This document shows positions 29,101 to 63,101 of a stretch of DNA of 64,000 bases, one piece after another (the stretch's first letter is position 1; each line of letters opens with the position of its first letter). The notes under the pieces are model-generated. The model had not been told where the DNA came from. It worked only from the letters and a program-made list of their open reading frames with translations, and ran no database searches. The DNA is from Stramonita haemastoma. Its lineage: Eukaryota > Mollusca > Gastropoda > Neogastropoda > Muricidae. The DNA is taken from positions 87,134,868 through 87,198,867 of the forward strand of contig CM060316.1 of assembly GCA_030674155.1 (NCBI GenBank), in the 5' to 3' direction. Made by a program: the position numbers and the translations under genes.

Positions 29101-32100
29101 GAAAGTGCCCAACAAGGGCACTATTTAAAGTCATTATAGTTTTTGTTTGATGTTTTGAAGGTTTTATATATTTCAGATGAAAAAAAAATGTAACAAAAAT
29201 GTGGTGCTGCGTGTGTGTGTGTGTGTGTGTGTGTGTGTGTGTGTGTGTGTGTGTGTGTGTGTGTGTGTGTGTGTGTGTGTGTGTGTGTGGTGTATGTTGT
29301 GTGTATGTGTGTGTATTTGTTAGAGAGACAGAAAGAGAGTTTTGTAACTATGCTTGAACATAGTTTCAGAAAACAGGCTACACTCCGAAGCAGCCCACAG
29401 TGCACAAATCCAACATCACTCAGTAAGGCCTAGTCCAGAGTCCTAAATTTAGCGCACTCCTTCCTTTTACCTTGTCCATGTGTGGTAAGCTCCAGCAATA
29501 AACAGTATCAGCTGGGCTGGGCTGGGATGAGATGGGATAATTAGCAGCTGAGAGGAGCTGAAAGTGGGGGGTTCTGACAGCTGTGAGCCTCCTGATCTAA
29601 ACCTAAAGCTTGTTGGTTTGTTTTTAAAACTGTTCTCCTTGTTTTCTGGTGACCGTTCAGGTGATGATCCAGAAGGGGATGAAGGCGGTCAAGCAGCTGG
29701 TGTATTCGGCCATGCGTCGCGTGGTCAGCAACAAGTCCACGCGGGAAGCGAGCCTCACATGGCTGGCCACTCTCATCAGCGGCAACGAACCGCGCACGTC
29801 CACTGTGTCTGGGGACGCGGAGCATCACATTTCCTGCAGCGATGGTGTGTGACTTGTGTATTCGAAGCAAGGTTGAATCAAACCAAAATTTTTTTTATAA
29901 ATATAAAAAAAAAATCAAATCAACAGTTGAATTACTGAAGAAATATCCCAAGTCACAGACCAAAACCAACTAAATCAATAAGCATCAAACCACACACAAA
30001 ATGAATTTAAAAAAAAAAAAAAAAATGTGGTGATGGTGTGTGATCTGTGATCGTTTTTTTGTTGTTGTTTTTTTGGTGGGGGGGGGAAGGGGGGGTTCAA
30101 TTTATTTTGTCTTTGGTTTGATGTTTATTGATGTGTTTGATTGGTCTGTTATTTGGGATATTTATTCAGTAATTCTGTTGTTGTTGGATGTTTTTTTTTA
30201 AACATTTTAAAATTTTGGTTTGATCGACATTGTTTTGAATTATTTCAGACTAATGCATGCTATGAGACAATAGATAAAGGTAAAGGTGTTCCATAACCTA
30301 TGTGGTCATAGGGGAGCGAGGCATCAGAGACCTCAGCTTCTCTAGGGGCTGGCATTTTTAGGGCTGCACGCATCTCTCCCTTGTTGCTTTACCTTCCCTG
30401 ACCCTAAAGAGGGCAGGTAGGCTACCCATTTACAGCTGGGTGAACTGGGGGGACTGTACTGAAGCCAAGGCGTGCAAACGGTCACCCATCCAACTGGTAA
30501 CCACGCTTGATGCTGCTTAACTTGACTGGGGGAAAGTGAGCGCTCTGACCACTGAGCTATCCCGCCCCCTATGAGACAAAACATTGATTAATCTACAGTT
30601 TTGATCAGCGACTGTGCTTCTCAGCTCTCGGGTCATTGTTTTAATGTTGTGTGTGTGTGTGTGTGTGTGTGTGTGTGTGTGTGTGTGTGTGTGTGTGTGT
30701 GTGTGTGTGTGTAAGGTTTTTCATGTTTTCTTCAAATACTTTATTTTTAAATTTTGAAAGGAGGTACTAAATAAAAAGTTGGGAAGGGGGGGAGGAGGAC
30801 AGAACATTACCCATGATAACCATAGCTTTGTTAAAATTTGATTAAAAGTGCTACACAGAGGAGAAATATAACCATTATCATTACTGTTTTTGAAAGTAAT
30901 ATTTTGACAGTGATGTATGGTATTACACAGGTCATGTTAGAGAGAGTGTGCCTTGCTGTTAGAGGTAACCACACACACACACACACACACACACACACAC
31001 ACACACACACACACACACACACACACACACCTCCATGTGAAGTTATAATCACATTCAGCGCACACTTTAAAAACCCATTCCGCTTTTCGGAAGAGTAGGC
31101 CATTCATGTGAAGTAATGATTACATTCAGCACACACATTAAAAACCCATTCCGTTTTTCAAAAGAGTAGGCCATTGTGTGCCAGTGGGAATGGATGACAA
31201 AATTGACAAAACTGCGTATGCACGAGGACTGGATTTTTAAAAAAAAGAAAAGAAAAGCACATGAGTGCTTATTTCCTTATCCTCGGGAAAAAAAAAAAAT
31301 TAAGTTTCATGATGATGATGATGATAAATATTGACCACAATGCCCCACGGTGCGTTTTCAGCATTCATGCTCAACGTCTGCTCGCTGCTGTTGGAGTTTT
31401 ACCTGCCCATCGGCCAGAACATGGAGAAACTGGAGAAGGTGGACCTGGGCTACTCCGTGTCTCCGGCCTGTCGCCTGGCCTACAGCTTTGAGACCTGTCT
31501 GGCCGATGGACAGATTGGTCAGTTGGGTTTTTTTTTTTTTTTTTTTGTTTTTAGATCAGATTTTCAGAATTTCCTGTCATCAGCTACGATGTGATAGAAT
31601 CACAAATGTAACCTCGGAAGTACTGAGTAGGGAATCTTTGTTTTCCTACTCCTATTGTGATGGACATGAATGATAAGCATACATTATTCTCTCTCTCTTC
31701 TCTCTCTCTCTCTCTTCTCTGTCTCTCTCTCTCTCTCTCTCTCTCTCTCTCTCTCTCTTCTTCCTCTTCCTCTCTCTTTCATCTTCTCTCTATCTCTTTT
31801 CTCTCTTCTTGTTTGTCGTTTCTTTCCTGCTCTTTCTCTTCTCTGTATTTCTTTTCCACCAGATTGGTCAGTTGTTCCCTTGCTGTGTCTTTTGCCTGTC
31901 TTTCTCTTTTCTTTTCCTAGTTATGCTTACCAGTTTGTAAGTTTTCAGCAACTGCCACTTTTGGATTGCTAAAAATCCGCATCCATCCCTTTAGAAATGA
32001 TGTTTTTGGGGGGGGGGGGGGCCCTTTAGGACTAAGTCCTGTTTCATGTAATTTCTCCCAGGTAAGTATCTGACATTTTGGGATTGGTTAGAAAGTGAAG

Positions 32101-63101: not shown

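Follow-up and report, generated by a model that had tools for sequence, protein, structure and literature searches.

On current understanding, E4 enzymes need a separate E2, which is brought in through a U-box. The DNA analyzed here, a 64,000-nucleotide stretch from the gastropod Stramonita haemastoma (hereafter, the window), raises the question of whether a single gene can encode a UBE4-like core followed by an E2 (UBC) domain of its own, or whether two genes have been read as one. A sequence-only reading had proposed the former, with a gene at 29661..63101 whose exons run in consistent phase from the core into a BIRC6-like UBC.

The window has a GC content of 40% and contains many microsatellites together with split-gene sequence. 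Starting from seed exons, we used a splice-site and codon model to obtain a single exon chain on the + strand, and exon ends were then set by protein relatives, with the Nucella protein fixing where 25 of the 30 exons lie and in which frame. The final model comprises 30 exons and 4,631 nt on the + strand, from ATG 7813 to TAA 63099-63101 (7813-63101). The end of the proposed span was retained, but its start was not, as coding exons extend far upstream to the modeled ATG, which is immediately preceded by an in-frame TGA (7807-7809). The exons are as follows:

Exon 1, 7813..8143, + strand: ATG 7813 and N-terminal tail; coding score and phase; with exon 2 the least certain
Exon 2, 8867..9061, + strand: UBE4B-like p97/VCP-binding pattern MRLKRLSR (8872-8895), then Ser-rich linker; end uncertain (donor 9061 weak, 8899 better, phase identical)
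Exon 3, 10717..11354, + strand: four frame switches relative to Nucella; placed by relatives
Exon 4, 12998..13130, + strand: Nucella similarity
Exon 5, 14976..15049, + strand: coding score and phase only
Exon 6, 16690..16865, + strand: Nucella similarity
Exon 7, 19512..19575, + strand: resembles relatives by eye, with fitting splice sites and phase
Exon 8, 20501..20569, + strand: splice-site/codon model and relatives
Exon 9, 21626..21799, + strand: approximate start of the Ufd2P core; Nucella similarity (Nucella core 620-1271)
Exon 10, 29661..29844, + strand: core, 12-residue peptide from 29757; Nucella similarity
Exon 11, 31362..31517, + strand: core; Nucella similarity
Exon 12, 33493..33642, + strand: core, one frame switch near 33600; relatives
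Exon 13, 34606..34681, + strand: core; Nucella similarity
Exon 14, 36712..36828, + strand: core; Nucella similarity and relatives
Exon 15, 39381..39530, + strand: core; Nucella similarity
Exon 16, 40694..40827, + strand: core; Nucella similarity
Exon 17, 42161..42331, + strand: core, bears a 14-residue peptide; Nucella similarity and relatives
Exon 18, 43570..43660, + strand: core; Nucella similarity
Exon 19, 44863..44962, + strand: core; Nucella similarity
Exon 20, 45993..46087, + strand: core; Nucella similarity
Exon 21, 46795..46893, + strand: core; Nucella similarity
Exon 22, 51792..51859, + strand: core; Nucella similarity
Exon 23, 53589..53805, + strand: end of the core; splice-site/codon model and Nucella similarity
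Exon 24, 54965..55180, + strand: linker; Nucella similarity from 54978; frame switch before 54978 inferred
Exon 25, 56076..56166, + strand: start of the E2 (UBC) fold; Nucella similarity
Exon 26, 57397..57554, + strand: UBC; Nucella similarity
Exon 27, 58218..58329, + strand: UBC active site, 19-residue peptide (58219-58275), catalytic Cys codon 58252-58254
Exon 28, 60038..60129, + strand: UBC, one frame switch near 60094; relatives
Exon 29, 61424..61508, + strand: UBC C-terminal part; Nucella similarity
Exon 30, 62887..63101, + strand: UBC C-terminal helices, acidic tail and stop TAA 63099-63101; coding model and Nucella similarity

In this model, phase is kept at 29 of 29 junctions and GT/AG is found at 58 of 58 splice-site ends, so that the phase continuity claimed from the core exons into the E2 exons was upheld. 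The phase count is not fully independent, since the chain-building method demands phase, and four exons were read past frame switches; the other 26 exons are free of in-frame stops. Of the peptides named earlier, the 12-residue core peptide and the 19-residue UBC peptide were found in exons 10 and 27, while a 13-residue core peptide lies in no single exon and is formed over the splice 51859|53589. The exon after 53805 had been said to start at 55011. We dropped this start, which needs no frame switch, for the more probable 54965 because Nucella similarity extends back to 54978. An exon at 44361-44394, guessed from human UBE4B, was also dropped since Nucella joins 43660 directly to 44863. The Pfam search of the window and the first protein search described below were conducted with a draft model that still included this wrong exon and an over-long exon 17.

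Several other features were recorded in the window. The intron 21799-29661 contains a largely intact non-LTR retrotransposon on the - strand (22245-27437), with an ORF1 of 601 aa (25632-27437) that has no Pfam match and an ORF2 of 934 aa (22795-25599) for endonuclease and reverse transcriptase, which apparently continues in another frame at 22245-22814. A fragment with zf-RVT (zinc-binding, reverse-transcriptase-associated) lies on the - strand at 35574-35972, and a 67-bp tandem repeat at 50961-51476 (7.7 copies, 96% alike) is open in three frames in turn. At 63083-63299, the last coding bases and stop codon (GAGGAAGATGACGATTAA) are tandemly repeated several times past the stop with small changes.

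The Pfam search of the joined exons that the sequence-only reading had suggested matched both domains. In the spliced draft, Ufd2P_core (E=1.4e-83) was matched from position 3 to 625 of its 628-position profile, with UQ_con (E=5.1e-24) C-terminal to it. Together with the 29 in-phase junctions, this places a UBE4-like core and a BIRC6-like UBC in one phase-consistent exon chain. The best PDB match of the UBC domain was the E2/E3 hybrid BIRC6/BRUCE (E=3.7e-70), which has the same UBC type. Matches were weaker to UBE2O (5.4e-38) and UBE2Z (5.1e-31), large E2s of the BIRC6-related group, of which PDB entries call UBE2O an E3-independent E2; neither is known to carry a Ufd2 core. UBE2J was not among the 60 PDB matches listed for the UBC. 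For the core, the Littorina sequence matched yeast Ufd2 in the PDB (E=4.3e-18). The window retains the catalytic Cys of the E2, a residue shared by 56 of 56 aligned rows.

A full Ufd2P core is thus common to this protein and to UBE4A, UBE4B, and yeast Ufd2. They differ in what follows: the latter have a U-box, whereas the predicted E2 domain, with its active site intact, occupies that place in the core-UBC protein. Pfam detected no U-box in the draft, nor at E<=0.1 in 34 relatives, 33 of which had a Ufd2P core (P0061 had entered this set as a UBC-only relative). A red-alga U-box query against the six frames of the window gave a best E of 7.6 and nothing in 53805-63101. This query is weak for split exons, and since the matching red-alga core query was also weak in the window, its result alone is not strong; against the fetched proteins, it gave E>=1.2 except for its own source, P0128. 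The intron between the core and UBC exons does hold a coding-looking ORF with an acceptor site (54497-54655), which we dropped as a hidden U-box because it has no Pfam match and its phases misfit. The Pfam scans of the draft and the 34 relatives, with the weaker red-alga query, agree with the claim that no U-box exon was missed between core and E2. The protein also differs from BIRC6 in that a Ufd2 core stands in place of BIRC6's own scaffold, no BIR family was among the Pfam matches of the 34 proteins, and BIRC6 chains are about 4,860-4,900 residues long versus 717-1637 residues for the double-domain rows.

In the first protein search, 7999 candidates were scored and 120 of 202 matches were listed. 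Of those 120, 59 carry both Pfam domains in one protein and, with the window, bear out the claimed architecture of a core and an E2 without a U-box. Among molluscs, these include the gastropods and chiton Nucella, Babylonia, Littorina, two Haliotis, Gigantopelta, Patella, and Liolophura; other animals are represented by three Branchiostoma records, Owenia, Lingula, Oculina, Actinia, Nematostella, and the sponge Dysidea. Outside animals, we found Scenedesmus, Aureococcus (here the evidence is two precomputed domains only), and a protein with an id suggestive of Ulva. A profile search (7999 scored, 34 listed) returned 28 proteins with both domains, including additions from Batillaria and two more, along with four core-only rows (fragments or true variants, which the search does not tell apart), one UBC only, and one core with a U-box. 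No double-domain protein of a vertebrate, insect, nematode, yeast, or bivalve was among the named rows listed, which is not proof of absence. Database names for these proteins are "uncharacterized," "hypothetical," "unnamed," "ubiquitin-protein ligase," "E4 A-like," or domain names.

These relatives bear directly on whether two neighboring genes, one UBE4-like and one BIRC6-like, were mistakenly merged. The introns are large and the evidence in the window is genomic sequence, which leaves room for such an error. However, the relatives answer the objection because they join both domains in one reading frame, and they come from genomes and transcript-length contigs of distant lineages, so that a merger is already contradicted. 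P0004-P0006, for instance, are ORFs of 1530-1637 residues on intron-free contigs of 4.8-5.7 kb, which would be transcripts if the gene is split there as in the window, and six both-domain proteins (P0031, P0032, P0046, P0054, P0057, and P0060) have transcript-assembly ids. Phase is also unbroken across the core and E2 exons, and the distances of the two domains run parallel, as described next. We therefore consider a merger extremely unlikely. The phase count and the one-protein relatives together make a strong case for one gene, as had been proposed.

Core and UBC distances correlated with r=0.90, and none of 999 permutations was as high or near. The UBC tree started from 122 extracted UBC sequences, the match being too short for 3 of 62 double-domain names; 20 of 61 UBC-only rows were kept, and removal of 4 near-duplicates left 77 rows. 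The 56 double-domain rows in this tree required 2 label changes versus a shuffled mean of 18.5. One UBC-only row, P0056, falls inside the double-domain cluster, the support of which is 87, below the tool's star. In the core tree (56 rows), 26 animal-labeled rows lie on one side of a branch with a support of 99, the "animal" label of rows P0001-P0028 being assigned partly by kinship. The parallel distances fit a single old fusion from which core and UBC would have been inherited together, and its spread over animals, green algae, and a stramenopile points to a great age. The predicted core-UBC protein is a family, not a one-animal curiosity. We propose to recognize this family by a core and then a UBC in one frame, an order seen in the window once its in-exon frame switches are bridged.

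The N-terminal half varies across the family. Compared with UBE4A, UBE4B, and Ufd2, many animal core-UBC relatives add a signal-like start, an EF-hand pattern, and a membrane helix, a set that belongs to many animal members and does not define the whole family. The signal-peptide-like start was seen by eye, with an N-terminal hydrophobic stretch over the hydropathy threshold in 12 of 28 rows; a membrane helix beyond the N-terminus was indicated by hydropathy in 20 of the 28 rows P0001-P0028. Among the 60 rows P0001-P0060, 17 show the EF-hand pattern, and each of these belongs to a named animal or sits next to one; Pfam called EF-hands in at most 6 of 34 proteins. The sponge row P0126 has the signal/EF-hand/membrane layout with two EF-hand loops, and the UBC is absent from its model. 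When we searched the window for an EF-hand, membrane exons, and a signal peptide, none was detected. The gene may lack EF-hand and membrane exons altogether or carry them beyond the window, and the exons detected would give a soluble form, unless membrane exons lie upstream of base 1. In the truncated relative P0127, a hydrophobic helix at the N-terminus precedes a VIM-like p97-motif helix. Both were seen by eye and unscored by the pattern search (hydropathy 1.71, under the threshold), and this hints at membrane anchoring outside animals. By eye, UIM-like helices were also observed near the N-terminus of P0029, P0030, and P0050-P0052, algal rows among them (Pfam UIM in 4 of 34).

According to a passage of one paper (PMC5559722), UBE4B binds p97 through an N-terminal VBM with the consensus PsiRXXRXXR. 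MRLKRLSR in exon 2 fits this consensus; when the 175-residue tail was shuffled 20000 times, the pattern arose in 25 of the shuffles, the motif having been spotted first and the shuffle test done afterwards. A VBM-type pattern, a candidate p97-binding site, is present near the N-terminus of the window model and of part of the core-UBC family: allowing K or R as last residue, we found it in the window, three Branchiostoma, Owenia, Lingula, 6 of 7 cnidarian-clade rows, and sponge row P0126. The strict form is present in the window, Owenia, Actinia, and P0126, and most other pattern rows end in K. In amphioxus, Owenia, and 6 of 7 cnidarian-clade rows, an Arg-rich VBM-like helix sits just inside the membrane; Lingula has such a helix and no membrane helix. 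None of 11 mollusc-clade rows (P0001-P0010 and P0016; P0003 without its N-terminus) carries the pattern, so the closest relatives lend no support to the motif in the window. A search with tail residues 20-135 gave no homolog among 912 candidates at E<=0.1. Since the tail has no homolog and the mollusc rows no motif, exons 1 and 2 are placed by coding score, phase, start context, and the motif.

Is the window copy itself a working gene? Compared with relatives, six in-exon frame switches were found, four in 10717-11354 and one each in 33493-33642 and 60038-60129, and a seventh is inferred in 54965-55180. These would be expected if the family is real and the window holds a recently broken or relaxed duplicate. 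The substitution record points the same way: with Littorina as outgroup, the window has 133 unique substitutions versus 73 in Nucella over 1287 sites, and across four outgroups 114-189 versus 64-79, or about 1.7 to 2.4 times as many, in a test on hand-chosen joined segments that include one mistranslated stretch (stops set to X). The same comparison of Babylonia with Nucella was even (85 to 82), and the UBC branch is longer for the window (0.073) than for Nucella (0.017). The roughly 5.2 kb intronic retrotransposon in the same window appears by eye to need just one frame change. However, the 26 exons without a switch have no in-frame stop, every splice site is intact, and only 2 of 116 columns invariant in relatives differ, each by a conservative exchange (D to E, L to M); in six gastropod-clade rows, 0-1 of these columns are changed. 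Errors in a long-read assembly would likewise explain small indels and the lack of nonsense changes, and we regard such error as somewhat more likely than decay as the source of the frame switches. A broken or relaxed copy thus appears improbable to us, and the core-UBC family is independent of the state of this copy.

As to function, we lean slightly toward an E2-E4 hybrid that is self-contained, anchored to a membrane in many animals, and possibly active beside p97. Its core would engage a client already bearing ubiquitin, as Ufd2 does, and the tethered E2 would be charged by an E1, with UBA6 as first candidate because BIRC6 works with UBA6. The charged E2 would then add ubiquitin directly, in place of a U-box-recruited separate E2. 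That the tethered E2 reaches core-held ubiquitin is part of this proposal only, and we likewise infer that chains could be extended without a recruited E2. Where present, the N-terminal p97-type motif would bring the enzyme to p97/Cdc48 and couple it to extraction. An ERAD review (PMC7432864) describes binding of Ufd2 to Cdc48 and cites one study in which Ufd2 placed K48 branches on ERAD substrates and another that saw chain elongation; this disagreement over elongation versus branching alone counts against the E2-E4 reading. In anchored animal forms, the signal-like start and single membrane helix would put core and E2 on the cytosolic face and the EF-hand in the lumen; the membrane would be secretory, most likely that of the ER, which would make this an ER-associated degradation enzyme. 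A calcium role for the EF-hand is speculation. A membrane-held E2 recalls Ubc6/UBE2J, the ER-membrane E2, although Ubc6 and its homologs have hydrophobic C-termini (PMC7432864) and the core-UBC anchor is N-terminal.

Alternatively, the protein could be an E2/E3 hybrid like BIRC6 or UBE2O that modifies its own chosen substrates, with the Ufd2-like core as a scaffold and no chain extension or branching. Its E2 is of the BIRC6 type, BIRC6 with UBA6 monoubiquitinates LC3B (PMC6863627), and no U-box was found in the scanned proteins that would provide ordinary E4 chemistry. The lack of the p97 pattern in all 11 mollusc rows weighs the E2-E4 reading down and this one up, and the 4 of 34 profile-search rows with a core and no UBC also count against the E2-E4 reading. 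On the other side, a mere scaffold sits poorly with a core matched almost end to end and with core distances parallel to those of the E2, and the p97-type motifs in part of the family suit a Ufd2-like role. We consider the scaffold reading fairly unlikely, if a serious competitor, and retain the E2-E4 hybrid as our working proposal.

The earlier statement that no animal protein of this architecture has been described holds for the literature searched, which covered few subscription journals: no description of a Ufd2 core joined to a UBC was found there, and many database entries exist without a functional name. In two surveys, the main text contains "Ufd2" 0 times (PMC4327156) and "UBE4" 0 times (PMC11354881). 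A broader proposal, which we offer tentatively and with some doubt, is an undescribed eukaryotic family, possibly dating back to the last common ancestor, of E2-E4 hybrids that require only E1 and act beside p97, with a membrane-anchored animal form whose luminal EF-hands let ER calcium control cytosolic chain building, and with loss in vertebrates, insects, and yeast. That loss, if true, would account for the family having gone unnoticed.

Taken together, the core-UBC family looks like an old, overlooked branch of the protein-disposal system. An E4 with a built-in E2, if true, would show whether the E4 core positions an E2 on a growing chain unaided and would offer a compact one-protein system to make or branch chains. 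From the N-terminal half of many animal members, one may suspect that p97-dependent degradation can also be reached by a membrane route, perhaps under calcium control, that may have escaped work on vertebrates and yeast, and the inventory of ancestral ubiquitin enzymes would change.
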